Of a stretch of 64,000 bases of DNA, positions 1,646 through 24,569 are shown in pieces. The first letter of the stretch is position 1, and each line of letters opens with the position of its first letter. Location: assembly GCA_947497245.1 (NCBI GenBank), contig CANMFO010000003.1:248001-312000 (forward strand). The letters run 5' to 3'. Below the pieces are notes generated by a model, which worked only from the letters and a program-made list of their open reading frames with translations, was not told the origin of the DNA and made no database searches. The DNA comes from an uncultured Flavobacteriaceae bacterium (GTDB taxonomy: Bacteria; Bacteroidota; Bacteroidia; Flavobacteriales; Flavobacteriaceae). Both the position numbers and the translations under genes were made by a program.

Positions 1646-3865
1646 TTAATTGCTATGGGATATCGAAGCGTATTTTTTTTCCCGATCCGCACTGTTCAAA
1701 ACTTCCAACACCCGATCCGGTGTAAAAGGGAGATGCCGCAGGGCTTTCCCCGTCAGGCGCAAAAAAGCGTTGGCGATGGCACAGGCCACCAAGGGGGTTC
1801 CCGATTCTCCCACGCCCTGGGGGTGTTCGGTGGAGGGAATCATTTCGGTCTCAATGCTTTCGGGAATATCTTCCATTCGCAGGAGGGGGTAGTCATGAAA
1901 ATTGGATTGTTGCACCTGCCCTTCCGCTATGGTTATACGTTCCTTGAGCACACTGCTCATCCCCATTAGTATACCGCCTTCCATTTGCGCCCTTACATTG
2001 TCGGGCTGAACGATCACCCCGGCATCCAGGGCATTCCAGAAATGGTGTACCTTGATTTTTCCCGTTTCACGATTCACGGAAATTTCACAGACGGCCGTAC
2101 TTAGCGTTCCACTTCGCTCCAAAAAGGCCAATCCTTTGGCCCTCCCTTCCACAGCGGGGCCGTTCCATTTCGACATGATCGCTGCTTTCTCCAAGGTAGC
2201 CAGGGCACGGGGCGCATTCCGCATCAATGTCCTGCGAAGGGCCAAAGGGTCGATTCCCTGATCTAGGGCGATTCCGTCCAATAGGCACTCAATGGCATAT
2301 TTATTGGGAGCATGGCCCACAGATCTCCAATGCTTCAATCGAATTCCATGGGAAACTTCCTTCCACTCCGCATATTGGTTCGGAATGTCGTAGTAGTTGT
2401 TTTTGATACCGCTGGCGACCAAATTACCCCCATCGCCTATTATACTGTGCGATAATCCGGTGATATTCCCCTTGGCATCCGTACTTGCGCTCAAGCGCTG
2501 TAACGTCTGGGGCCGAAAAGCGCCGTAGGTCAGGTCGTCTTCCCTGGTCCAGAGCAACTTTACCGGACGCCCTGGTATTTCTTGGGCGAGAAGGGCACAT
2601 TCGGTGACGAAATCGGTCATGCTTCTACGGCCGAAACCTCCTCCCAAATACTGCAGATTGATCTTTACGGCCTCAGGCGGAATCCCCAAGACCTTGGGTA
2701 CGCCCAGTTTTTCATCAAAGCCTTGTTGGCTGCCTACCCAGACTTCCGCACTTTGCCTGTCCGTGGCAACCTGTACCACCGCGTTCAAGGGTTCCATTTG
2801 TGCATGGTAGACATAGTCGTTCTTAAAATCGGCCCGGTAGGTCTTGGCGGCGGACCGAAACGCCTTTTTTACGTTTCCGATCTCCGTAAGCACCTTGCCC
2901 TTTGTTTTCTTTTCGGCATGTTTTTCGTAAACGGCAAAAACATCTTTAGAATTGAACCCGCCCGTTTGGCCATGCTCCCAATCGATTTCCAAGCGTTTTT
3001 TGACCTCCAAAGCCCGTTCCAAGGTGGTCGCCACGATTCCGATGGCGTGGTCCATAGGGAGTATTTTGAGCACCCCGTCCATCGCCAATATAGAGGCCTT
3101 GTTCTTCAAGGCGGGCCTGGCCCCGTGAATGGCACCCCTTTCCAGTACCGCATAGACCATATTGGGCAATCGGATATCTATGGCAAATTGGGCACTTCCA
3201 TTGACTTTTTCAGGGATCTCCGTACGTGCCACAGACTTCCCGATCAACCTAAAGTCCGCGGGGTCTTTCAACCCTTTTTCGTTAAAATCAGGAAGGATCT
3301 CGGGGACTTCCAAGAAGGGAACGATCTCCCCGTAGCTTGCGCTTAATCCCTGCTCGGGATGGACCACTTTTCCAATTTTGGTGGTCAGTTCCCCAATTGG
3401 AACCTTCCATAGCTTGGCCGCACTATGCAATATTATATGGCGCGCTTGGGCCCCGGCTTTTCGCATCAGGGAATAATAGCCCGTGGTGACCCGGCTCCCT
3501 GCCGACAGCATGACCTTTCTACTGGCTCCCCAGCCCTCCGACCCGTAAATGTCGGATTCCTGTGGTGAAAAGATAACTTGGACCATCGACCAGTCCGCAT
3601 CCATTTCCTCTGCGAAGATCACAGGAAGGGAAGTCATGGACCCCTGGCCCATTTCTGCCGCAGGATTGTAGATCGTGAGCTGCCCATCTTCCGAAAGCTG
3701 TACCCATGCGGTAAGTGGCTGTTTGGACAACTGCTCCCCGATCTTTTTCCTGTCCGCGCAGGACAAGGCAATGGGCAATAGTCCGGAAACCCCAACAAAA
3801 AGGGCCATCCCACTGGAGGTTTTTAGGAACTGTCTTCTGCTGGCGGATCTTGTGCTAGGGTTCAT
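1646..3865 (-). CDS. Molybdopterin-binding large subunit of an aldehyde/isoquinoline oxidoreductase (IorB type)
   Basis: A 739-residue protein of the xanthine oxidase superfamily, in the form without fused FAD and Fe-S domains. Residues 9-15 (SRRQFLK), followed by a hydrophobic stretch, form a twin-arginine signal, so the folded cofactor-loaded enzyme is exported. The molybdopterin domains are recognisable from QYLGGGFGRRS and PVKLLWTREDD. Near the C-terminus GVGESGTPLVACA carries the glutamate that acts as catalytic base in this superfamily. The 2Fe-2S subunit is encoded 30 bp upstream, giving the usual small-large pair. Such enzymes hydroxylate aldehydes or N-heterocycles and pass electrons through the Fe-S clusters, often to a cytochrome c. 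A c-type cytochrome gene lies nearby (4557-5036). The substrate cannot be told from sequence. Confidence 0.92.
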   Translation of the reverse strand: MNPSTRSASRRQFLKTSSGMALFVGVSGLLPIALSCADRKKIGEQLSKQPLTAWVQLSEDGQLTIYNPAAEMGQGSMTSLPVIFAEEMDADWSMVQVIFSPQESDIYGSEGWGASRKVMLSAGSRVTTGYYSLMRKAGAQARHIILHSAAKLWKVPIGELTTKIGKVVHPEQGLSASYGEIVPFLEVPEILPDFNEKGLKDPADFRLIGKSVARTEIPEKVNGSAQFAIDIRLPNMVYAVLERGAIHGARPALKNKASILAMDGVLKILPMDHAIGIVATTLERALEVKKRLEIDWEHGQTGGFNSKDVFAVYEKHAEKKTKGKVLTEIGNVKKAFRSAAKTYRADFKNDYVYHAQMEPLNAVVQVATDRQSAEVWVGSQQGFDEKLGVPKVLGIPPEAVKINLQYLGGGFGRRSMTDFVTECALLAQEIPGRPVKLLWTREDDLTYGAFRPQTLQRLSASTDAKGNITGLSHSIIGDGGNLVASGIKNNYYDIPNQYAEWKEVSHGIRLKHWRSVGHAPNKYAIECLLDGIALDQGIDPLALRRTLMRNAPRALATLEKAAIMSKWNGPAVEGRAKGLAFLERSGTLSTAVCEISVNRETGKIKVHHFWNALDAGVIVQPDNVRAQMEGGILMGMSSVLKERITIAEGQVQQSNFHDYPLLRMEDIPESIETEMIPSTEHPQGVGESGTPLVACAIANAFLRLTGKALRHLPFTPDRVLEVLNSADREKKYASISHSN

Positions 3866-3895
3866 TTCCCATGGTTTTTGAGTGAATACAACTGC

Positions 3896-4369
3896 TCATT
3901 TTTTGGCAAGCCGGTTCTTTGATGCCAACTGAATGGCCTCGACAATGCGGAGATAGGTTCCGCAGCGGCATAGATTTCCGTTCATATAGCTTTGGATATC
4001 TTTCCGACTGGGTTCCGGATTTTCGTTGAGCAACGCAACGGCCTGCATAATCTGCCCAGATTGGCAATAACCGCATTGTGGGGCCTGCGCTTCGATCCAA
4101 GCTTTTTGTACCGGATGATCGCCCGCTTCCGATAATCCTTCAATGGTGGTTATTTTTTGGTTCTCGGTCAGACCGTCGACAGTGAGGGTACAGGCCCTCA
4201 TGGGGCGGTCGTCCACATGTATGGTACAGGCCCCGCATTGAGCTATGCCGCACCCATACTTTGTTCCGGTGAGCCCAAGGTGTTCACGCAATACCCAAAG
4301 CAGGGAAGTGCCCTCGGTCACTTCGACCTGTTGTTTTTCATCGTTTATGTTAAAGGTGTACGCGGCCAT
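3896..4369 (-). CDS. 2Fe-2S subunit of the molybdenum hydroxylase (IorA type)
   Basis: This 157-residue subunit carries two 2Fe-2S clusters. The plant-type ferredoxin cluster is bound by CGIAQCGACT and a following cysteine (MRACT). The helical second cluster is bound by CGYCQSGQIM and CRCGTYLRI. I take the ATG at 4369 (MAAYTFNIND) as the start, because the 16 extra residues from an upstream ATG at 4417 look like untranslated leader and relatives begin at this point. There is no signal peptide, so it presumably travels through Tat as a hitchhiker with the large subunit, whose gene is 30 bp downstream. A near-perfect 28-nt palindrome sits 7 bp upstream of the start codon. Confidence 0.92.
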   Translation of the reverse strand: MAAYTFNINDEKQQVEVTEGTSLLWVLREHLGLTGTKYGCGIAQCGACTIHVDDRPMRACTLTVDGLTENQKITTIEGLSEAGDHPVQKAWIEAQAPQCGYCQSGQIMQAVALLNENPEPSRKDIQSYMNGNLCRCGTYLRIVEAIQLASKNRLAKK

Positions 4370-4376
4370 CTGCTGG

Positions 4377-4404
4377 TTCGGTATTTTACCGTTAAAGTAC
4401 CGAA
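4377..4404. promoter_or_regulatory. 28-nt imperfect palindrome, candidate operator
   Basis: Two adjacent 14-nt arms pair at 12 of 14 positions. The core arms read CGGTATTTTACC and GTTAAAGTACCG. The palindrome ends 7 bp before the start codon of the 2Fe-2S subunit gene at 4369. It has no T-tract, so it is more likely a dimeric regulator site or an mRNA hairpin at the ribosome entry site than a terminator. No cognate regulator is encoded next to it. Confidence 0.45.
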
Positions 4405-4492
4405 AAAGCCAAAGCAAGGCAAATCGCGAATACAGGAAGTGGTTTGGTGGTAGAGCAAGAGCGGGAATGTCCCGACTAGGGATATGGATAGC

Positions 4493-4529
4493 AAAAATGC
4501 CGTTGTCCCAGCTATTCCGGACAACGGCA
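4493..4529 (-). terminator. Rho-independent terminator after the cytochrome c gene
   Basis: A perfect 11-bp stem (TGCCGTTGTCC pairing with GGACAACGGCA, 10-nt loop) is followed on the minus strand by a run of five T. It lies 28 bp past the stop codon of the cytochrome c gene and separates that unit from the molybdenum hydroxylase genes. Confidence 0.85.
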
Positions 4530-4556
4530 TGTCAAATTATTCTGTTGTAAAAGGAA

Positions 4557-5036
4557 CTAAAACGTCCTAAGATACTCCGCTACCGCCCGAGTTTCCTCAT
4601 CGGTCAGGTTTTGGTTGAGCATGATGGCGTTGTTGTATTCCTTTAAGAGGGCCTTGGCGATCGGATCTTCCTTTAGCATGACATCCGGGTTGCTGATCAT
4701 GTTCATTACCCAAGCCGGACTTCTTCTTTCGTAGATCCCCTTTAGAGCCGGGCCGATCATACGCTGCTCCGCCATATGGCAAGCCACACAAATTGCATTG
4801 AACTTGGCTTCTCCGGCCGCCGCCATTTCCGTATTGATGTCGGCATCAAAAGAGATGTCCTTAAATGGACCCACACCGTCGTTGTCCATATCTACTGGAA
4901 CGCCTTCGGACGCCTCAACAGCCTTGGATTCCTTTTTGGTGCGGTTCATTTCAAAACCTTCTTTCTTTTCTTCTTTTTTTTCGCCACAGCTCCCAATCAA
5001 GGCAGCAATTGCCAAAATGCCCAATATTTTTTTCAT
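4557..5036 (-). CDS. Class I c-type cytochrome lipoprotein
   Basis: A 159-residue protein starting at the ATG at 5036. Upstream in-frame codons run into the neighbouring gene, and the chosen start gives a clean lipoprotein signal MKKILGILAIAALIGSC. A charged linker follows, then a monohaem cytochrome c domain with the haem motif CVACH, a candidate axial methionine in AEQRMIGPALKG or a later segment, and a C-terminal LTDEETRAVAEYLRTF helix. It should sit in the periplasm, tethered to a membrane by lipid, and move electrons between a dehydrogenase and the respiratory chain. It is the last gene of a leftward block and is followed by a strong terminator. It could be the acceptor for the neighbouring IorAB enzyme, although the terminator implies separate transcripts. 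Confidence 0.88.
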   Translation of the reverse strand: MKKILGILAIAALIGSCGEKKEEKKEGFEMNRTKKESKAVEASEGVPVDMDNDGVGPFKDISFDADINTEMAAAGEAKFNAICVACHMAEQRMIGPALKGIYERRSPAWVMNMISNPDVMLKEDPIAKALLKEYNNAIMLNQNLTDEETRAVAEYLRTF

Positions 5037-5077
5037 GTTGATCGATTTTAGGCCACTAATATAAGGAATAGGGAGGT

Positions 5078-6040
5078 TTATTTTAAACTGCTCAGAAAGT
5101 TTATTGCCCTTTTTTCGGTATAATACGTATTTCCTGACCCATAAAAACCCACATGCCCCCCATACTTGGGAACTTCCAAATAAAGGTTTGCATTTTCCTC
5201 CGCTTCCTTGAAGGGATAGCATTCCGGCCCCAGAAAAGAATCGTTGGCGGCATTGATGATCAAGGTGGGAATGTTGATATTGGGCAAAAATTGCAGGGAA
5301 CTACATTGTTCATAATAATCCAAAGCGTCCTTAAACCCATGGGCCCGGCTGGTATATATATCATCAAAGTCCTTAAGGGTGATGACGTTTTTTATATCGG
5401 CATCGGAAATCTTTTCCGGGAACAACCGTTGTTTGGCACGTAGTTTTTGGATCAGGTGTTTTTTGAACCGCCTGGCGTACAAAGCATTTTTGAAGGTCAA
5501 CAATTGTTTCAGCGAACTGTGCAACTGACAGGGTACGGAGATGGCGACGGCACCCTTGATCTCTGGGGGAACCTTCCTTTCCTCCCCTAAAAATTTCAAG
5601 GCCATATTGCCTCCCAAACTGAATCCCTTGATGTATATTTCTGAATAGCTCCTGGTCTTAAGAATTCGGTGTATGACCGCTTCCAGATCTTCCGTAGCAC
5701 CGGAATGGTATGAGCGATAGGTCCGATTGGTCTCCCCGCTGCATCCCCTGAAATTAACGGCACAGGCGTCGAATCCGGCAGCATTGAACGCTTTGGCACT
5801 TCCGGAAATATAGGCCCGCTGGGCATTGCCCTCCAAGCCGTGCAAAAGAACAATTGCCCTGGAGGTGGGTTTTGGGGAAGGGCTCCAATCGAGGTCCAAA
5901 AAATCCCCGTCGGGCAAGGGCAAGCGTTCCCGCTCTTGGACCACACCGTCGACCTTCCGGACCAGGCCGGAATAGATGGTGGAAAGATGTCCGTTCTTAA
6001 AAAAAAAGGGCGGATCGTAATCCGATCGGAGCAGCGGCAT
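5078..6040 (-). CDS. Alpha/beta hydrolase of the YheT family
   Basis: A 320-residue alpha/beta hydrolase. The YheT signature is visible in the N-terminal KNGHLSTIYSGLVRK, the oxyanion-side VLLHGLEGN, the nucleophile elbow GFSLGG (Ser141), the acid segment NAANDSFLGPE and the catalytic histidine in GGHVGFYG. Family members are cytoplasmic esterases of unknown natural substrate. Its start codon overlaps the stop codon of the bestrophin gene by one base (TGATG), implying translational coupling. The cytochrome c gene follows after 41 bp. Confidence 0.88.
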   Translation of the reverse strand: MPLLRSDYDPPFFFKNGHLSTIYSGLVRKVDGVVQERERLPLPDGDFLDLDWSPSPKPTSRAIVLLHGLEGNAQRAYISGSAKAFNAAGFDACAVNFRGCSGETNRTYRSYHSGATEDLEAVIHRILKTRSYSEIYIKGFSLGGNMALKFLGEERKVPPEIKGAVAISVPCQLHSSLKQLLTFKNALYARRFKKHLIQKLRAKQRLFPEKISDADIKNVITLKDFDDIYTSRAHGFKDALDYYEQCSSLQFLPNINIPTLIINAANDSFLGPECYPFKEAEENANLYLEVPKYGGHVGFYGSGNTYYTEKRAINFLSSLK

Positions 6041-7044
6041 CAGTACAGAATATGGTCCTTTGGCTTCACCTTTTCTGGCAGCTTGCTTTCGTCCAGCATG
6101 TCCCTGAGATCAATTTCAATGGTTCGGCACAAGGCGGTCATGGGTACATCGTTGAGCCTTCCTTCGAAAGGATCTTCACTATTGCTCCCCACTTTTTCCA
6201 TAGTCGTGAAAATCCAGGAGATCAATACGGAAAAAGGGACCATAAGCCCCAGAAATACTTGTTGCTGAGATGGAGTGCGCAACTCTTTGATCTCTGACTC
6301 AAAAACAGAAAGCAGTCCAAATGGAAGCAGTAGGACGAAAATCCAGGTGAACAAGGTACTAAAATAGGCATATTGCCGGGGAAAAGGGGTGTTCTTAATT
6401 CGTTCGCACCGCCCCTGTAGGTTGTAGAGTTCCTCCAGGACATTGTGGAAGACCTGCTTGTCGAACTCTGTGATCTTTCCTTCGCCGAGCAATTTTTTAA
6501 GATGGAGGCCCTGGTTTTTCACCAAGTGGGTGGCCACGTTTTTCCGGTTCTCCAGATCGGCGTCTTCCTCCGGGCTCAAAAAAGAATCCAGACCGGCACA
6601 GACGGGATTTCGCTCCCCATGACGATCGAAGAGCCGTTCTACCGATCTGTTTTCCTTGATGGAAAAGGAAGTGGGTTGGCGCAATTGGATGCGCAAGGCA
6701 TTGATCCAGGCCAGATGCCTGTAGATAAGAACCCTTTTGGTTTCATGGTCGTCCTCGACAAAACTCAGTACGTTGTTGGCCCAGGTCCGGGAATAGTTCA
6801 CGATACCGCCCCATATTTTTCGAGCTTCCCAAAAACGGTCATAGCTCTGGCTGTTCTTAAAACCGATATAAAAGGCCACCGCAATTCCAATGACCGTAAG
6901 GGGTTGAAAGGGAACGTCGATATGTTTCCAATCCAGAAAATAGTATGCGGCAAAGATACTCGCGGCCCATAGTGTAAAAAACACTAGGTTTTTCCATGCA
7001 TATCGCAAGATAATGCCCCAGCTGATATTGCGTTTTATGTACAT
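6040..7044 (-). CDS. Bestrophin-family membrane channel
   Basis: A 334-residue membrane protein of the bestrophin / UPF0187 family. It begins with MYIKRNISWGIILRYAWK, has two early transmembrane segments (about 20-40 and 45-65), and the conserved family stretch FKNSQSYDRFWEARKIWGG with RTWAN just after. Two further hydrophobic segments occur near 230-270. Bacterial members form pentameric ion channels, and studied ones conduct cations or anions depending on the pore residues, so selectivity is uncertain here. The gene sits between a nitronate monooxygenase gene (20 bp upstream) and the YheT hydrolase gene (1-base overlap), in one apparent transcription unit. Confidence 0.9.
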   Translation of the reverse strand: MYIKRNISWGIILRYAWKNLVFFTLWAASIFAAYYFLDWKHIDVPFQPLTVIGIAVAFYIGFKNSQSYDRFWEARKIWGGIVNYSRTWANNVLSFVEDDHETKRVLIYRHLAWINALRIQLRQPTSFSIKENRSVERLFDRHGERNPVCAGLDSFLSPEEDADLENRKNVATHLVKNQGLHLKKLLGEGKITEFDKQVFHNVLEELYNLQGRCERIKNTPFPRQYAYFSTLFTWIFVLLLPFGLLSVFESEIKELRTPSQQQVFLGLMVPFSVLISWIFTTMEKVGSNSEDPFEGRLNDVPMTALCRTIEIDLRDMLDESKLPEKVKPKDHILY

Positions 7045-15617: not shown

Positions 15618-16337
15618 ATGCAGGTTACCACCAAGGCCATAGTGCTCTCCTCCCTAAAATATGGCGATACCAGCCTTATCGTCAAGGCGTTTACGGCATC
15701 CGAGGGTATAAAATCATATTTGTTGAAAGGGGTTTTGACGGCCAAAAAAGGAAAGCTGAAGGCGGCTTATTTTCAGCCACTGATGCAGCTCGAACTGGTG
15801 GCCAACCACCGCAACAAAGGCAGCCTGGAAAATATAAGGGAGGCCAAGGTGGCGTACCACTACCAATCTTTCCATACCGACATCGTTAAAAACGCCATGA
15901 CCCTTTTTTTAGCTGAAATGTTGGGGAACAGCATTCATGAAGAAGAACAGAACCATGGCCTTTTCGAATTCCTGCAAGCCGCCCTACAATGGTTGGACGC
16001 ACATGACGATATCGCAAACTTCCATATCTTTTTTTTATTGGAACTTACCAAATACCTCGGCTTTTACCCGGATACGAGTGGATTGGAAACCGGGAACTTC
16101 GATCTGCTCGAAGGGGAATTTACCAACACCCCGTCCTTGAACCCAATGATCACTGGGGAGAATTTAAATTACTTCAAACAACTTTTGGGCATAAATTTTG
16201 ATAAGGTTAATACCGTCAGAATGAAGAAAACCAACCGTCAAGACCTCTTGAAATCCCTGGTTCTGTATTTTGAATTACATTTGCAGGGATTTCGAAAACC
16301 CAAATCCCTTGCCGTTTTAAATGAAGTTTTCAGCTAG
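15618..16337 (+). CDS. recO: DNA repair protein RecO
   Basis: A 239-residue protein with the RecO layout: an N-terminal OB-fold (MQVTTKAIVLSSLKYGDTSLIVKAFTASEG, with the basic KKGKLKAAYFQPL surface) and a helical C-terminal part. RecO binds single-stranded DNA and SSB and, with RecR, loads RecA at gaps during recombinational repair. The zinc-binding cysteines found in some RecO proteins are absent, as in other Bacteroidota members. The stop codon lies inside the first codons of the following receptor gene (17-bp overlap if that gene starts at 16321), so the two are probably cotranscribed. Confidence 0.9.
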   Translation: MQVTTKAIVLSSLKYGDTSLIVKAFTASEGIKSYLLKGVLTAKKGKLKAAYFQPLMQLELVANHRNKGSLENIREAKVAYHYQSFHTDIVKNAMTLFLAEMLGNSIHEEEQNHGLFEFLQAALQWLDAHDDIANFHIFFLLELTKYLGFYPDTSGLETGNFDLLEGEFTNTPSLNPMITGENLNYFKQLLGINFDKVNTVRMKKTNRQDLLKSLVLYFELHLQGFRKPKSLAVLNEVFS

Positions 16338-18744
16338 TATGCAACGGATAGTATATGTTCTTTCCTTTCTTTTTTTCCAGGCTCTTCCCGCCCAGGAGAT
16401 CACTATCCTGGATATCGATACAAAGGAACCCATTTTGAACGTTGCCGCTTACAATTTCGATAAATCAAAGACGGCGCTTTCCGATTTTGACGGCAAATGC
16501 GACCTATCGATCTTTGGACGGGACGAACGCATCACATTTAAGCATATCAGCTATCAGCTTAGACGAATTGGCAAGTCCCACATCTTAAGACATGGAAGCA
16601 AGCTTTTTCTGGTGATGAAGGCACAAGAATTGGATGAAGTGGTGATGTCGGTCTCCAAATGGGAACAGCAGAAAAAGGACGTTCCCCAAAAAATTGCCTC
16701 CATCAATGCCCTGCAGATTGCTTTTATCAGCCCCCAGACATCGGCCGATCTCTTGCAAAGCAGCGGTAAGGTTTTTGTCCAGAAAAGCCAATTGGGCGGT
16801 GGAAGCCCCATGATCAGGGGGTTTTCTGCCAATAGACTTTTGTTGTCCGTGGATGGGGTGCGTATGAACAACGCCATTTTTCGCGGGGGCAACCTGCAGA
16901 ATGTCATCTCCATAGATCCCTACACCATAAAGAACACGGAGGTCATTTTTGGCCCGGGGTCCGTAATCTACGGCAGTGACGCCATGGGGGGCGTCATGAA
17001 TTTTTATACCAAAGACCCCATGTTCGCCACGGCCGATAGTACCCAGGTTTCCGGCAATGCGAATTATCGGTTTTCATCTGCCAATGGGGAGAACACCGGG
17101 CATGTCGACCTTAACATCGGGCGGAAAAAATGGGCATATCTTACGAGTATTTCCTATAATAGTTTTGGCGACCTTACCATGGGGGAGCACGGCCCGGAGT
17201 CGTACTTGCGCCGCAACTATGTCCAGACGGTGAACGGGCAGGACCAAGTGGCATCCAACCCAGATCCCCGAAAGCAGCTCCCCACGGGCTATGATCAAAT
17301 CAATCTGATGCAAAAAATAGCCTTCAAACCCAACATCAATTGGCATTTTAAGCTAAATACCCACTATTCGGAATCCTCCGATTACTCCAGATATGATCGC
17401 CTGATCAGACCCAATGGGGACGGATTTCGATCGACCGAATGGCGGTACGGCCCCCAAAAGTGGTTCATGGGGAATTTCCAGGTAGACAAAAAGGGGAAAG
17501 GGCTCTTTTATGACGGACTGAAGATCACCACGGCCTATCAGCATTTTGAAGAGAGCCGGCACAGCCGTGCTTTCCAGGATCCCGATCGCTTTTCCACTAG
17601 GGAAAAGGTGGATGCCATTTCCCTCAATATCGACTTTGAGAACAAAAAGATCGGGGACCTAAGATTGTACTATGGGGGGGAGTATGTGTTCAATAGGGTC
17701 CATTCCACGGGGAGCCTAACGGACATCACCACCAATACGGTTTCCGCTGCGGCCTCCCGGTATCCCGACGGGGCCAGTTGGCAATCCCTGGCGGGCTATA
17801 TCAACGGGGAGTACAAGGCAAAGCCCAATTTCAGCCTGCTTGCAGGCCTTCGATATAGCCACGTGTGGATCGATGCCGATTTCTACAAGACGTTCTATCC
17901 TTTCCCGTTTGACCATGCCAACCTAAACAATGGGGCATTGACCGGCAGTTTGGGCTTCAGTTGGTTTCCCAGGGCAGATTTGCAAATCACCTGGAATGGT
18001 TCAACAGGTTTTCGTGCCCCCAATATTGACGATGTGGGAAAAATATTCGACTCCGAACCTGGAGCAGTGGTGGTGCCCAATCCCGATTTGGAGCCTGAGT
18101 ATGCGTACAACACGGAATTGGGGATACGGAAAAACTTTAAGGACAAGGTAGTGCTCAGGGGAGCCGCTTTCTATACCTATCTGGTCGATGCGCTGGTACG
18201 AAGGAGCTTTCTTTTCAACGGAGAATCACAAATCATGTACAACGGGGAACCGAGCGATGTGCAGGCCATTCAAAATGCCGCGAAGGCATATGTGTACGGT
18301 TTTGAATTGGGTCTGGATGCCTTCCTGACGGACAATCTTTCCCTGTCTTCCAACCTCACCCTGACCCAGGGCATCGAAGAAGAGGCGGACGGCACGGATT
18401 CCCCCGGGCGACACGTGGCGCCCACCTTTGGGGATTTTCATATCCTCTGGAAAAACCAAAAACTCAAAGCCGACCTTTTCCTGAACTACAATGGCGAAAT
18501 TGCCTTTGACGATTTGGCCCCCTCTGAGCGGAGTAAGGAATATATCTATGCATCGGATGTCAATGGAGATCCCTATTCCCCTTCGTGGTATACCTTGAAC
18601 TTTCGCTCGCAGTATGCCATTTCAAACACCCTGACCACGACGGTGAGCCTGGAGAACATGACCAATCAACGGTACCGTTCCTATTCTTCCGGAATAGTGG
18701 CGCCGGGAATCAACCTTGTTTTGGGGCTGGGATATCGGTTTTGA
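16321..18744 (+). CDS. TonB-dependent receptor, heme/hemoglobin-type
   Basis: An outer-membrane receptor of 807 residues. A signal peptide is followed by a short carboxypeptidase-regulatory-like domain (about 25-100), then the plug (SGKVFVQKSQLGGGSPMIRGF, GPGSVIYGSDAMGGVMNFY) and a 22-strand barrel ending in LVLGLGYRF. In the barrel GFRAPNIDDVGK and VVPNPDLEPE match the FRAP and NPDL motifs of heme and hemoglobin receptors, so heme or a heme protein is the likely ligand (family knowledge plus inference). The ATG at 16321 overlaps recO by 17 bp; an ATG at 16339 after the recO stop gives an equally good signal peptide. A strong terminator follows. Confidence 0.9.
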   Translation: MKFSASMQRIVYVLSFLFFQALPAQEITILDIDTKEPILNVAAYNFDKSKTALSDFDGKCDLSIFGRDERITFKHISYQLRRIGKSHILRHGSKLFLVMKAQELDEVVMSVSKWEQQKKDVPQKIASINALQIAFISPQTSADLLQSSGKVFVQKSQLGGGSPMIRGFSANRLLLSVDGVRMNNAIFRGGNLQNVISIDPYTIKNTEVIFGPGSVIYGSDAMGGVMNFYTKDPMFATADSTQVSGNANYRFSSANGENTGHVDLNIGRKKWAYLTSISYNSFGDLTMGEHGPESYLRRNYVQTVNGQDQVASNPDPRKQLPTGYDQINLMQKIAFKPNINWHFKLNTHYSESSDYSRYDRLIRPNGDGFRSTEWRYGPQKWFMGNFQVDKKGKGLFYDGLKITTAYQHFEESRHSRAFQDPDRFSTREKVDAISLNIDFENKKIGDLRLYYGGEYVFNRVHSTGSLTDITTNTVSAAASRYPDGASWQSLAGYINGEYKAKPNFSLLAGLRYSHVWIDADFYKTFYPFPFDHANLNNGALTGSLGFSWFPRADLQITWNGSTGFRAPNIDDVGKIFDSEPGAVVVPNPDLEPEYAYNTELGIRKNFKDKVVLRGAAFYTYLVDALVRRSFLFNGESQIMYNGEPSDVQAIQNAAKAYVYGFELGLDAFLTDNLSLSSNLTLTQGIEEEADGTDSPGRHVAPTFGDFHILWKNQKLKADLFLNYNGEIAFDDLAPSERSKEYIYASDVNGDPYSPSWYTLNFRSQYAISNTLTTTVSLENMTNQRYRSYSSGIVAPGINLVLGLGYRF

Positions 18745-19354: not shown

Positions 19355-22300
19355 ATGAAGTTTGCAGAGTACAAAGGGCTGAACCTACCGAAAGTGGCTG
19401 GGGAGATTCTCCAATTTTGGAAGGAAAACCGAATTTTTGAGAAAAGCGTTTCCATCAGGGAGGGCAAGTCGTCGTATGTGTTCTATGAGGGTCCCCCGTC
19501 GGCAAATGGAATGCCGGGCATCCACCACGTCATGGCGCGCACCATCAAGGATATTTTCCCCCGCTACAGGACCATGAAAGGATTTCAGGTAGAACGAAGG
19601 GCGGGTTGGGATACCCACGGACTGCCCATAGAGCTCGGTGTTGAGAAAGAATTGGGAATTACCAAGGAGGATATCGGAAAGAAAATTTCGGTGGAAGCCT
19701 ACAATGCGGCCTGTAAAAAAGCGGTGATGCGCTATACCGATGTGTGGAACCGCATGACCGAACAGGTGGGCTATTGGGTGGATATGGACGATCCCTATAT
19801 CACCTATAAGCCCAAGTACATGGAGTCGGTTTGGTGGCTGCTGAAGCAGATCTACGATAAGGGCCTTATTTATAAAGGATACACTATTCAGCCCTATTCG
19901 CCCAAGGCAGGGACCGGACTGAGTTCCCATGAACTGAACCAACCGGGCACCTATCAGGATGTGACCGATACCACAGTGGTGGCGCAGTTCAAAGCGGTTG
20001 GGGACACCCTTCCGGATTCTTTACAAGACGAGGGAACGATATATTTTTTGGCATGGACGACGACTCCTTGGACGCTTCCTTCCAATACCGCACTGACCGT
20101 CGGGCCAAAGATCGATTATGTATTGGTCGAGACCTACAATCAGTACACCTTTGAGCCCATGAACGTGGTTTTGGCCAAAACTTTGGTCTCCAAACAGTTC
20201 GAAGGAAAATACAGTCAGGTAGGATCCAAGCCCGAGCTGTTGGAGTACAGTGCCGGAGACAAAAAAATACCGTTCTACATCGTTAAGGAAATTAAGGGAA
20301 GGGATCTGGTCGGGATCGAGTACGAACAGTTACTGCCCTATACCTTGCCCTACGAAAATGCCGAAAACGCCTTTCGGATCATAGCCGGGGATTTTGTGAC
20401 CACCGAGGATGGTACCGGAATCGTACACACCGCCCCTACCTTTGGTGCGGACGATGCCTTTGTGGCCAAACAGGCAGTTCCCGAAGTGCCTCCCATGCTG
20501 GTCCTGGACGCGAACAACAACCCAGTGCCCCTAGTGGATCTTCAGGGAAGGTTTCGTCCGGAGTTAAAAGAACTGGCGGGGAAATACGTAAAAAACGAAT
20601 ACTATGAAGAAGGCCAGGCCCCTGAAAGGTCGGTCGACGTGGAGATAGCCATCAGATTAAAGGAAGAGAACAAGGCCTTTAAGGTCGAAAAATATATGCA
20701 CAGTTACCCCAACTGTTGGCGGACCGATAAGCCCATACTGTACTATCCCTTGGACTCCTGGTTTATAAAGATCACGGATGTAAAGGACAGAATGTTCGAA
20801 TTGAACAAGCAAATCAACTGGAAGCCCAAATCCACAGGCGAAGGCCGGTTCGGAAACTGGTTGGCCAATGCAAACGACTGGAATTTATCGAGATCGAGGT
20901 ACTGGGGCATTCCATTGCCCATCTGGAGGACCGAGGACGGACAAGAGGAAACCATCATAGGGTCGGTCGCGGAACTGAAAACGGAAATGGCAAAGGCGGT
21001 GGAGGCGGATGTCTTGACAAAGGATATTTTTGAGGATTTTGTAGTGGGGGATCTTTCGGAAGAAAACTACGACAAAGTCGATCTGCACAAAAATATAGTG
21101 GACCAAATCGTTTTGGTGTCCCCATCCGGGAAGCCGATGCGGCGGGAAAGCGACTTGATCGATGTTTGGTTCGATAGTGGGTCTATGCCCTACGCCCAAT
21201 GGCATTATCCGTTCGAGAACAAGGACGTCATAGACCAGGGGACTACTTTTCCAGCCGATTTCATCGCCGAAGGTGTGGATCAGACCAGGGGGTGGTTTTA
21301 CACCCTTCATGCCATAGCGACCATGGTATTCGATTCCGTGGCCTACAAAAATGTGGTTTCCAACGGACTGGTGCTGGACCGGGAAGGCAAAAAAATGTCG
21401 AAGCGGCTGGGCAATGCCGTCGACCCTTTTGAGACCATTGACGAACATGGGGCCGATGCCACGAGGTGGTACATGATCAGCAATGCCAACCCATGGGACA
21501 ACCTGAAGTTCGACATTGAAGGCATCGTGGAGGTAAAGCGAAAGTTTTTCGGCACCTTGTACAACACCTATTCTTTCTTTGCGCTATATGCGAACATCGA
21601 TGGTTTTGCCTATACCGAGAAGGAGGTGCCCTTGAAGGACCGGCCGGAAATAGACCGGTGGATTTTGTCGGAACTGCACTCACTGGTCAAAACGGTCGAC
21701 CAGGCCTATGCGGATTATGAACCCACACGGGCCACACGGGCCATTTCGGATTATGTCCAAGAAAATTTGAGCAATTGGTACGTTCGTTTGTGCCGAAGGC
21801 GTTTCTGGAAAGGAGATTACCAAAAGGATAAAATATCGGCCTATCAGACGCTGTACACTTGCTTGCTGACGGTAGCGAAATTGGCCGCCCCGGTCGCCCC
21901 CTTTTTTATGGACCGCCTTTACAAAGATTTAACAGCGGCAACTAAAAATGAAACTTTTGAAAGTGTACATTTGTCGGAATTCCCTTTCTATGATTTGGCC
22001 ATAGTGGATCAGGAATTGGAAAGTAAGATGGAAAAGGCGCAGCAGATTTCTTCCCTGGTTTTGTCCATTCGGCAAAAGGAAAAGATAAAAGTGCGCCAGC
22101 CCCTTCAGAAGATCATGATCCCGGTTCTGGATAAGAAACAGAAACAGGAGATTGAAGCGGTGGCCGATCTCATCAAGTCGGAAGTGAACGTAAAGGAGGT
22201 GGAACTCCTCGACGATGCCTCCGGAATCTTGGTAAAGCAGATCAAGCCGAATTTTAAGGTCTTGGGCCCCAAGTATGGAAAGGAAATGAAGGCCATTGCC

Positions 22301-22753
22301 CAATCTGTACTGCGTTTTGGCCAGGAAGATATCCAAGAAATTGAGCAAAAGGGCGAAATATCCATTGAAATTGAAAATAAAACCATTATTTTACAGTTAC
22401 AGGATGTAGAGATTTCGTCTCAGGATATCGAGGGTTGGTTGGTGGCCAGCGCCGGCGCGATTACCGTTGCACTGGATGTCAGCATCAGCGAAGACCTTAG
22501 AAAAGAGGGTGTTGCAAGAGAATTGGTAAACCGAATCCAGAACCTGAGAAAGGACTCAGGTTTTGAGGTAACCGACAAAATCAACATAAAAATCCAAAAG
22601 GACGGGTTTGTTGAAAAGGCGGTCGAGAGCAATTTGAAGTACATTAAAACGGAAACCTTGACCGCGGAACTCAATTTTGAGGAAAATATGGAAGAAGGCA
22701 TGACAGTTGCCTTCGACGAAGTGAATACAAAATTATTTATTCAAAAACATTAA
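19355..22753 (+). CDS. ileS: Isoleucyl-tRNA synthetase with swapped HIGH motif (GIHH)
   Basis: A 1132-residue class I synthetase that charges tRNA-Ile. The ATG at 19355 (MKFAEYKGLNLPKVA) is chosen because the in-frame TTG further up lies at the promoter -7 element. The catalytic core, CP1 editing domain (WTTTPWTLPSNTAL) and KMSKR loop (EGKKMSKRLGNAVDP) are present, then the anticodon-binding helices and a C-terminal domain of the type found in eukaryote-like (type 2) IleRS, without the zinc-finger tail of type 1. The HIGH signature, expected after PPSANGMP, reads Gly55-Ile56-His57-His58, so the first and third positions are exchanged. It is the first gene of the ileS / dksA-like / lspA cluster and the only IleRS seen here. 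Confidence 0.96.
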   Translation: MKFAEYKGLNLPKVAGEILQFWKENRIFEKSVSIREGKSSYVFYEGPPSANGMPGIHHVMARTIKDIFPRYRTMKGFQVERRAGWDTHGLPIELGVEKELGITKEDIGKKISVEAYNAACKKAVMRYTDVWNRMTEQVGYWVDMDDPYITYKPKYMESVWWLLKQIYDKGLIYKGYTIQPYSPKAGTGLSSHELNQPGTYQDVTDTTVVAQFKAVGDTLPDSLQDEGTIYFLAWTTTPWTLPSNTALTVGPKIDYVLVETYNQYTFEPMNVVLAKTLVSKQFEGKYSQVGSKPELLEYSAGDKKIPFYIVKEIKGRDLVGIEYEQLLPYTLPYENAENAFRIIAGDFVTTEDGTGIVHTAPTFGADDAFVAKQAVPEVPPMLVLDANNNPVPLVDLQGRFRPELKELAGKYVKNEYYEEGQAPERSVDVEIAIRLKEENKAFKVEKYMHSYPNCWRTDKPILYYPLDSWFIKITDVKDRMFELNKQINWKPKSTGEGRFGNWLANANDWNLSRSRYWGIPLPIWRTEDGQEETIIGSVAELKTEMAKAVEADVLTKDIFEDFVVGDLSEENYDKVDLHKNIVDQIVLVSPSGKPMRRESDLIDVWFDSGSMPYAQWHYPFENKDVIDQGTTFPADFIAEGVDQTRGWFYTLHAIATMVFDSVAYKNVVSNGLVLDREGKKMSKRLGNAVDPFETIDEHGADATRWYMISNANPWDNLKFDIEGIVEVKRKFFGTLYNTYSFFALYANIDGFAYTEKEVPLKDRPEIDRWILSELHSLVKTVDQAYADYEPTRATRAISDYVQENLSNWYVRLCRRRFWKGDYQKDKISAYQTLYTCLLTVAKLAAPVAPFFMDRLYKDLTAATKNETFESVHLSEFPFYDLAIVDQELESKMEKAQQISSLVLSIRQKEKIKVRQPLQKIMIPVLDKKQKQEIEAVADLIKSEVNVKEVELLDDASGILVKQIKPNFKVLGPKYGKEMKAIAQSVLRFGQEDIQEIEQKGEISIEIENKTIILQLQDVEISSQDIEGWLVASAGAITVALDVSISEDLRKEGVARELVNRIQNLRKDSGFEVTDKINIKIQKDGFVEKAVESNLKYIKTETLTAELNFEENMEEGMTVAFDEVNTKLFIQKH

Positions 22754-22757
22754 GATT

Positions 22758-23141
22758 ATGGAGCAAGATTTGAAAGTTAGATATTCTGACAAGGATTTGG
22801 CCGATTTTAGAGCACTAATTGAGGATAAGATCGAAAAAGCAAAAAGCCATTTAGAACTTTTGAGAAGTGCCTATATGAACGATGGCAATAATGGCACCGA
22901 TGATACTTCGCCAACATTTAAGGCTTTTGAAGAGGGATCGGAGACGATGAGCAAGGAGGCGAACACCCAACTGGCCATCCGTCAGGAAAAATTCATCCGC
23001 GACCTTAAAAATGCTCTTCTTCGAATCGAGAACAAGACCTATGGAATCTGTCGGGTAACCGGTAAACTGATCAATAAGGAACGGTTGAAGCTCGTGCCGC
23101 ACGCCACTTTGAGCATAGAGGCCAAGAATATGCAGAAATAA
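22758..23141 (+). CDS. DksA/TraR-like protein with degenerate zinc finger
   Basis: A 127-residue protein 4 bp after ileS. The N-terminal two-thirds is a charged helical hairpin as in DksA (DKDLADFRALIEDKIEKAK, then EANTQLAIRQEKFIRDLKNAL). The C-terminal part keeps the DksA outline, TYGICRVTGKLINKERL, but only one of the four zinc cysteines remains: CxxC has become C-R-V-T and the second pair has become SIEA. DksA-type proteins enter the RNA polymerase secondary channel and modulate rRNA and stress promoters. This zinc-less form seems usual for Bacteroidota, next to ileS and lspA. Confidence 0.88.
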   Translation: MEQDLKVRYSDKDLADFRALIEDKIEKAKSHLELLRSAYMNDGNNGTDDTSPTFKAFEEGSETMSKEANTQLAIRQEKFIRDLKNALLRIENKTYGICRVTGKLINKERLKLVPHATLSIEAKNMQK

Positions 23142-23250: not shown

Positions 23251-23871
23251 GTGAAAAAGGGATGCCTCGCCATACTGCTATTGACCGCCCACTTGGTGCC
23301 CGCCCAGAAAGTGGTCGAAAAAACTATGGTACATCCCGGGATTTCCTTTATCGGGATCGATGCCAACAATTGTTTCGATATTAGTTTGGACACTTTGGAC
23401 GGGAATGAAATGATCGTGGAGGCGAAGATCGATGGGGAATATAGCGAAGACCTTTTGGTCAAAATCAGGCAAGAAGGCAGCGCTATTTTGGTGGGCGCGG
23501 GCTTTCATCCCAATTTTACAGATCCCAATGATAAGCTGAGTGCCCACAAGGTGGTTTCAATTGCGTTGCGCGTGCAGCTTCCCCGATTTAAGAAAGTTGA
23601 ACTACAGGGCACTGGTTGCAATGTGGCGGTTTCCGGGAATTATGAAAGTTTAAAGGTCGACCTGGGCGATGGTAGATGTTATCTGAAGAATGTTTCCGAG
23701 ACCGTGGAGGTCCATACCCAAAGTGGTGATATTACCGTCTTGGGGTCGAATGCACAGATCATGGCCTCCAGCAAATTCGGAAAGGTCCAAAAAAACAATA
23801 TTCCCCCGGGAAACAACAAGTATACCTTGTCCACGGTCACTGGAAATATCCATCTGAGCAAAACCGAATAA
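23251..23871 (+). CDS. Secreted DUF2807 (adhesin head GIN-domain) protein, GTG start
   Basis: A 206-residue protein with a signal peptide (MKKGCLAILLLTAHLVPAQ) and a beta-rich body. Repeating short strands such as VELQGTGCNVAVSGNYESL and VEVHTQSGDITVLGSN fit the right-handed beta-helix of DUF2807 (GIN domain). Such proteins are exported to the periplasm or cell surface, with no assigned function. The GTG at 23251 is the only usable start; the overlapping ATG at 23249 is out of frame. The gene interrupts the otherwise conserved dksA-like / lspA neighbourhood and starts 14 bp after a stem-loop. Confidence 0.78.
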   Translation: MKKGCLAILLLTAHLVPAQKVVEKTMVHPGISFIGIDANNCFDISLDTLDGNEMIVEAKIDGEYSEDLLVKIRQEGSAILVGAGFHPNFTDPNDKLSAHKVVSIALRVQLPRFKKVELQGTGCNVAVSGNYESLKVDLGDGRCYLKNVSETVEVHTQSGDITVLGSNAQIMASSKFGKVQKNNIPPGNNKYTLSTVTGNIHLSKTE

Positions 23872-23903
23872 TATCGTTATTTTTGCCCATCTATACACAA
23901 ACC

Positions 23904-24569
23904 ATGAGTCTAAAAAAATCACTAGTCCTTATCTTTTTAATTTTGGTAATAGACCAATGGAGCAAGATCTATATCAAGACGCATTTCGTGCTCCAGGAGT
24001 CTGTGGAGATTTTCAGTTGGTTCAAGATACTTTTTATAGAAAACGAAGGTGCTGCCTGGGGGGCCAAGTTAAGTGATGTGCTGCCCATTTCGGATGGCAC
24101 CGGGAAGTTTATCCTGACCATTTTCAGGCTGTTCGCCATTTTTGGTATTGGATATTGGCTTTACGATATCGTAAGAAAGAAATCCAGTATGACCTATGTC
24201 CTAGCAGTTTCCTGCATTTTTGCAGGGGCCCTGGGAAATATCATCGACTCTGTCTTTTACGGGGTACTGTTCGATCATAGTAGCGGCCAAGTGGCCTCGC
24301 TCTTTGCCGAAGAGCCCTATGGAAGCCTTTTTTATGGAAAGGTGGTCGATATGCTATATTTCCCTATGGTCAACACCACATGGCCCGAGTGGGTGCCTTA
24401 TTTTGGAGGGGGCAACTTCAGTTTTTTTGACCCTGTCTTCAATATTGCGGATACGGCGATAAGTACGGGTGTGGGCATTTTGATCGTATTCAACAAAAAA
24501 GCTTTTGGAGACAAAAAGGAGGAAGATGATTCGCCCGCGGAAGTACGTCAAACGCCCTTGAACGAATAA
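23904..24569 (+). CDS. lspA: Lipoprotein signal peptidase (signal peptidase II)
   Basis: A 221-residue inner-membrane aspartic protease that removes the signal peptide from prolipoproteins after lipidation. Four membrane helices are visible. The catalytic aspartates are Asp115 in GNIIDSVFYG and Asp183 in FNIADTAIS, and the early helix contains VIDQWSK. The loop between the two catalytic motifs (about 121-175) is long, as in other Bacteroidota LspA. The ATG at 23904 is preferred over an in-frame TTG at 23883, which falls within a -7 element (TATTTTTG, 23878-23885). The many lipoproteins in the window are its clients. Its 3' end overlaps the convergent cyclo-ligase gene by 22 bp. Confidence 0.93.
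   Translation: MSLKKSLVLIFLILVIDQWSKIYIKTHFVLQESVEIFSWFKILFIENEGAAWGAKLSDVLPISDGTGKFILTIFRLFAIFGIGYWLYDIVRKKSSMTYVLAVSCIFAGALGNIIDSVFYGVLFDHSSGQVASLFAEEPYGSLFYGKVVDMLYFPMVNTTWPEWVPYFGGGNFSFFDPVFNIADTAISTGVGILIVFNKKAFGDKKEEDDSPAEVRQTPLNE

Follow-up and report, generated by a model that had tools for sequence, protein, structure and literature searches.

A GIHH signature in the type 2 isoleucyl-tRNA synthetase of an uncultured Flavobacteriaceae bacterium and its distribution in the Bacteroidota

Introduction

The HIGH motif of class I aminoacyl-tRNA synthetases is a textbook constant. In the isoleucyl-tRNA synthetase (IleRS) considered here the corresponding stretch reads Gly-Ile-His-His, and this raises the questions whether the deviation is real, whether it is peculiar to the organism and what it would mean for the sensitivity of the enzyme to mupirocin. 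The gene is located in a window of 64,000 nucleotides, i.e. the whole stretch of DNA analysed (contig CANMFO010000003.1, positions 248,001 to 312,000), from an uncultured, marine-type Flavobacteriaceae bacterium of the phylum Bacteroidota.

An exchange of this kind with retained function is a real surprise, already published in 2023. The census of type 2 enzymes (IleRS2) given in the main text of Brkic et al. (2023; PMC10485003) comprises 86 proteins with a G/AXHH and 77 with an HXGH motif. According to the same text, exchanging the motif shifts the Ki of mupirocin about 175- to 820-fold while the enzyme is still active, which confirms the link between GxHH and very strong mupirocin resistance in type 2 IleRS to which an earlier note on this DNA had pointed. 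The terms "Bacteroidetes" and "Bacteroidota" are absent from that main text, and words beginning with Bacteroid from the main text of PMC4861432; the published IleRS2 tree very probably includes members of the phylum. What is added here is scale, a modest step: the exchange appears to be fixed, ancestral and present in single copy in those members of the Bacteroidota that were read.

The ileS gene and its signature

The product of the open frame (Table 1) scores 999.5 bits against the curated equivalog family TIGR00392 (cut-off 621.4 bits), which identifies it as an IleRS, and comprises the Pfam domains tRNA-synt_1, Anticodon_1 and DUF5915. The KMSKR loop is intact and the conserved motifs of the editing domain are found in the translation, in line with the earlier note. 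The stretch WTTTPWTLPSN is the conserved threonine-rich motif of class I editing domains, and DGTGIVHTAPTFGADD is the conserved editing-domain motif with an acidic pair.

Table 1 Positions in the window of the ileS gene, of the motifs and domains of its product and of neighbouring genes
Feature	Position	Strand	Remarks
recO	15618-16337		before ileS
TonB-dependent receptor	16321-18744		before ileS
Upstream in-frame TTG, possible start of ileS	19319	+	protein would be 12 residues longer
ileS, type 2 IleRS, 1132 aa	19355..22753	+	ATG-started open frame; TIGR00392; PDB matches
Gly-Ile-His-His replacing the class I HxGH signature	19517..19528	+	residues 55-58; codons GGC ATC CAC CAC
WTTTPWTLPSN, editing domain	20054..20086	+	residues 234-244
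DGTGIVHTAPTFGADD (pattern GTGIVHTAP..G.DD), editing domain	20408..20455	+	residues 352-367
HYPFE, type 2 (eukaryote-like) IleRS signature	21203..21217	+	residues 617-621; signature according to PMC4861432
Leu672, position of PmIleRS2 His582 / PmIleRS1 Phe586	21368..21370	+	alignment
KMSKR loop, second class I signature, intact	21392..21406	+	residues 680-684
C-terminal DUF5915 domain (PF19302)	22166..22747	+	Pfam scan
DksA/TraR-type zinc-finger protein	22758-23141		after ileS
lspA	23883-24569		after ileS

The reading of GIHH behind PPSANGMP proved right to the exact coordinates; the local sequence is PPSANGMP-GIHH-VMAR, with the motif at residues 55-58 of the ATG-started protein. The type 2 enzyme of Priestia megaterium (IleRS2) can be aligned over the whole of EGPPSANGMP-GIHH-VMARTIKD with no gap, and GIHH is placed opposite H54-V55-G56-H57 (8c8u, 8c8v) as well as opposite the GVHH of the mutant chain 8c8w, the top-scoring PDB match, again with no gap. 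It follows from this ungapped fit that no normal HxGH is displaced elsewhere in the protein: GIHH itself occupies the HxGH position. As the aligned signature begins with Gly and has His as its third residue, the enzyme belongs to the G/AXHH group. Two other class I synthetases of the same genome whose signature was read are canonical, ValRS with HMGH and LeuRS with HVGH.

That GIHH merely reflects an assembly or sequencing error is virtually inconceivable. The nearest relative fetched, from Maribacter (protein 84% identical), has an identical motif context, GxHH was found in every relative read, and an alignment of 197 sequences from the phylum, with that of the window among them, shows no variation at motif positions 1, 3 and 4; this invariance excludes chance or a sequencing error as the source.

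The best PDB matches, covering residues 18-1120, are the P. megaterium IleRS2 structures (8c8u, 8c8v, 8c9d) together with the GVHH mutant 8c8w. The P. megaterium enzyme differs in its natural motif (HVGH), in its His582, which corresponds to Leu672 here, and in length, the window IleRS being 100 aa longer (1132 versus 1032) with insertions spread over the alignment. Both the adenine and mupirocin adjoin the position of PmIleRS2 His582/PmIleRS1 Phe586 (PMC10485003, main text), and with Leu672 in place of this His the active-site geometry may differ from that of the solved structures. The motif was placed on the solved structures by sequence alignment. An AlphaFold2 model, for which the window IleRS was aligned with 27 close relatives (28 rows), has a mean pLDDT of 60, with values below 50 at residues 32-97 and 629-689, which contain both signatures.

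A Pfam scan of 11 proteins encoded in the neighbourhood, the IleRS being one of them, gave no mobile-element or antibiotic-synthesis families; the protein encoded at 23251-23871 is without a Pfam match.

Assignment to type 2

HYPFE is a eukaryote-like signature, and NKIL is, next to Tyr-59 and SSL, one of the type 1 signatures (PMC4861432, main text). The type 2 mark HYPFE is present in the window IleRS at residue 617 and the type 1 NKIL stretch behind the signature is absent, the sequence there being VMARTIKD versus ALNKVLKD and ALNKILKD in two type 1-like rows. A tree of 33 rows was rooted with the organism's own ValRS as outgroup, whose branch is long, as are those of several rows. In this tree the type 2 rows, the window included, form a group with support values of 97/94, and five type 1 rows stand apart (100/100). 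The 15 rows from the Bacteroidota are grouped with 98/99, and the window IleRS adjoins that of Maribacter; among the deep type 2 branches no firm order emerges. Judged by HYPFE, the lack of NKIL and the tree, the enzyme is of type 2 (eukaryote-like).

The closest known counterparts are the G/AXHH type 2 enzymes of Streptomyces griseus and Deinococcus radiodurans, which share the exchange of positions 1 and 3, the KMSK loop, the editing motifs and the housekeeping role. They belong to other phyla and their kinetics have been measured, whereas the window IleRS is known from its sequence.

Distribution of GxHH in the phylum

The word "rewritten" in the earlier note suggests a peculiarity of the organism. 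Such a view does not hold, since GxHH occurs in 80/80 named flavobacterial loci (59 GIHH, 21 GVHH) and in 146/146 readable genomes of the phylum. The named loci are the best 80 of 593 stretches, nearly all of them titled Flavobacteriaceae or their genera; they were kept apart from the 146 genomes, with which they may share species.

The genomes come from two samples. In the first, all 117 other genomes of the phylum have GxHH, 116 of them in an open frame (85 GIHH, 31 GVHH); together with the organism's own genome this sample covers 67 genera and 30 family groups. In the 117th (G067) the frame is interrupted by a TAG, and GVHH was read in a stretch of it that is free of stops. The second sample, a hunt for exceptions, consisted of 29 genomes: a larger draw had brought in 25 new family groups, each represented here by at least one genome, and three others were added. 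Each of the 28 genomes with a match showed GxHH (24 GIHH, 2 GVHH, 1 GLHH, 1 GMHH); G179 is the one genome without a match. Including the window's genome, the count amounts to 146/146 readable genomes and 55/55 family groups of the larger draw, and is confined to these 146 genomes of that draw.

The presence of the exchange in every member read speaks for ancient inheritance. As far as the sequences go, the motif was handed down by a shared ancestor, and an encounter of the species with mupirocin cannot be read from it; most likely the exchange predates the divergence of the phylum's IleRS and was retained thereafter. The term "hyper-resistant", which had been proposed for this organism, would thus describe the IleRS of the phylum and is silent on any special history of the species.

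Copy number

Eight matches were obtained in the organism's own genome (5.25 Mb in 34 contigs, 99.91% complete), but only one lies above the family cut-off. Of the seven below it, three were scanned and proved to belong to ValRS, LeuRS and MetRS, of which they are parts. The statement that this is the only ileS seen in the window therefore holds for the whole assembly, in which the search for a second ileS gave none; that a further copy was lost in a gap is improbable.

The same picture was obtained for the phylum. Exactly one match at E <= 1e-120 was found in each of the 118 genomes of the first sample, for which seven candidates per genome were scored (six in one genome). In the larger draw of 395 genomes, with two candidates scored in each, 390 have one match at this threshold, five have none and no genome has two. 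Four of the matchless five are 77-88% complete; the fifth is G179, which is given as 100% complete and is without an ileS match even at E <= 1e-100, perhaps through assembly loss or a broken gene. Two partial matches were found in 3 of the 29 genomes picked for family-group coverage. In G193 and G258 both are neighbours within one frame; in G283 they lie at the ends of two contigs and their profile ranges overlap, as expected from either a split gene or two copies. An intact second ileS was seen in none of the three samples (118, 395 and 29 genomes). In G067 (locus L181) the sole ileS match of the genome carries the in-frame TAG, which may stem from an error, decay or recoding.

MupA and MupB are acquired second genes for related IleRS. 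The window IleRS reaches 744.1 and 756.9 bits with their models (NF000257, NF000258), far under the curated cut-offs of 1900 bits, and thus lies outside both families; the staphylococcal plasmid MupA is about 36% identical to it. Unlike these acquired genes, the window ileS is the only one found in its genome. We hold with high confidence that its product is an ordinary housekeeping enzyme, the only IleRS found, of type 2 and with the naturally exchanged G/AXHH motif in the sense of Brkic et al. (2023).

IleRS of phages and plasmids

GxHH is also present in 3 of 26 loci on viral contigs that encode relatives of the enzyme, namely L213 (15.8-kb contig), L215 (31.7 kb) and L217 (430 kb). No terminase was matched on the contigs of L213 and L215, which are perhaps pieces of host DNA. 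On the contig of L217 (IMGVR_UViG_3300044796_000657; 430,229 b) a 945-aa IleRS with GIHH is encoded at 3471-6305, flanked by genes for a glutamate/leucine dehydrogenase-like protein and an RtcB ligase. This contig has a terminase match (PF03237, E 4e-11), a family which also matches 6 of 14 control cell genomes, and a match to the T4-type major capsid protein (PF07068, E 5e-27), which is found in 0/14 controls. On the basis of both matches it is most likely the genome of a large tailed phage or part of one. A phage-borne IleRS with GIHH could sustain isoleucine charging when the host enzyme is blocked.

The L217 protein matches phrog_12710 (903 positions, listed with unknown function) with E 4e-158, and by this sequence match the family looks like a phage isoleucyl-tRNA synthetase family. 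Four of the 26 matched records for IleRS in the phage collection were read and have canonical signatures (HIGH, HIGH, HVGH, HLGH). One of these four, an Acinetobacter phage record with ribF-ileS-lspA, looks like bacterial chromosome.

Two plasmid cases were noted. Four Riemerella records of about 100 kb labelled as plasmids (NZ_CP072187.1, NZ_CP081938.1, NZ_CP081930.1, NZ_CP081932.1) contain a full-length ileS whose product is 66-67% identical to that of the window; they are either real plasmids with an additional ileS or mislabelled pieces of the chromosome. Plasmid pTML1 of Pseudoalteromonas sp. SANK 73390 (locus L210), a thiomarinol producer, encodes a type 2 IleRS with HHGH, where positions 1, 3 and 4 are canonical and the second residue is His, and with Ile at the adenine-wall position, that of PmIleRS2 His582.

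Expected consequences for mupirocin binding

The G/AXHH enzymes that have been measured come from other phyla, and their data are given here as in the main texts of the two papers. The Ki of the D. radiodurans ALHH enzyme falls from 6.6 mM to 8.1 uM once the motif is made canonical, and GVHH put into two canonical enzymes raises it from 0.20 to 35 uM and from 1.08 to 460 uM, with kcat and KM altered up to about 10-fold (PMC10485003). For the S. griseus enzyme a Ki of about 10 mM is reported (PMC4861432). The values for G/AXHH enzymes vary widely, from 35 and 460 uM in the engineered to 6.6 and about 10 mM in the natural proteins.

In the structures, the third His occupies the place of the first, which is permitted in type 2 enzymes because the tip of the helix is shifted; a clash with mupirocin was modelled in silico by the authors and is not seen in a structure (PMC10485003, main text). 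Transferred to the window IleRS, the mechanism would be as follows. The tip of helix alpha1 would be shifted as in the published structures of type 2 enzymes, and His57, at the third position, would supply the catalytic imidazole that normally comes from the first His, leaving the ATP adenine undisturbed. Binding of mupirocin would bring the motif back towards the adenine, and after this back-shift the third His would clash with the nonanoic part and the ring of mupirocin. Inhibition would then be expected only at high micromolar to millimolar mupirocin.

An enzyme of type 2 with the same exchange, encoded by the only ileS found, must work in the cell, and by analogy with the measured enzymes its insensitivity to mupirocin is expected at the level of the target. 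On the same analogy the inference of mupirocin resistance is reasonable for the window IleRS, and for the phylum it leads to the prediction of an intrinsic, target-level insensitivity. Among the matches listed in the literature searches, neither biochemistry of this or any other IleRS of the phylum nor, judged by title and start of the abstract, a measured mupirocin susceptibility of a member was found. Of two genome reports, one names the isoleucyl-tRNA synthetase gene of a flavobacterium as a predicted mupirocin determinant (PMC10835994) and the other lists mupirocin among the resistances predicted from a flavobacterial genome (PMC5714932), the passages concerned giving predictions and no measured values, which indicates that such genes are already flagged by annotation pipelines.

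Persistence of the exchange

Since GxHH raises the resistance of the enzymes tested (PMC10485003, main text), one might suppose that neighbours producing antibiotics akin to mupirocin selected for the motif in this species or in its close kin. Relatives of mupirocin do exist at sea, where the sea-water plasmid of Pseudoalteromonas SANK 73390 carries its own type 2 ileS. However, that marine enzyme is itself of the canonical pattern (HHGH), and the motif is invariant in 146/146 readable genomes of the phylum from 55 family groups. This constancy disfavours selection at the level of the species, which we regard as very improbable; selection, if any, most likely acted at or before the ancestor of the phylum.

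A serious possibility, to which we give somewhat less than an even chance, is that the exchange is inherited and nearly neutral or locked in: a return by way of the single-change forms GxGH or HxHH would be poor, and the motif would persist with or without mupirocin. No intermediate or revertant was seen among the 146 genomes, and by the logic of the sequence neither codon exchange is possible with fewer than two base changes. A natural ALHH enzyme is reported to match the catalytic efficiency of canonical type 2 enzymes, but a reversion to HVGH is reported for Thermus, which leaves the way back open (PMC10485003, main text). Such a lock-in concerns the reason why the motif is kept and is compatible with a mupirocin-insensitive enzyme.

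On the 33-row tree the origins of GxHH amount to three changes at the fewest, with a single origin possible, and other phyla enter only via plasmid records and viral contigs; in the published tree GxHH arose at least twice (PMC10485003, main text). Going further, we propose, with about equal weight for and against, that the exchange was fixed in the ancestor of the phylum and is unreverted in the sampled descendants, so that the single IleRS of the whole phylum would be insensitive to mupirocin at the target level by descent and not because of exposure to the drug. In this reading the GxHH enzyme of at least one large phage would allow isoleucine charging to continue in a host whose own IleRS is inhibited. 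The phylum is a natural place to ask whether the motif is kept by antibiotic pressure, lock-in or catalytic benefit.

The idea that the exchange requires Leu at the adenine-wall position was rejected, because both residues, Leu and His, occur with both motifs. Of the 197 sequences of the phylum, all with GxHH, 169 have Leu and 28 have His at the site corresponding to PmIleRS2 His582; the 28 rows with His are all GVHH and fall into three family groups (f13, f15, f26). Thermus thermophilus, whose motif is HVGH (PMC10485003, main text), has Leu at this position. Among further enzymes from outside the phylum, the two with GxHH have Leu; of the three with HxGH, two have His and one has Ile. Among the loci on viral contigs, the GIHH enzyme of L217 has His and the HxGH enzymes of L214 and L218 have Leu.
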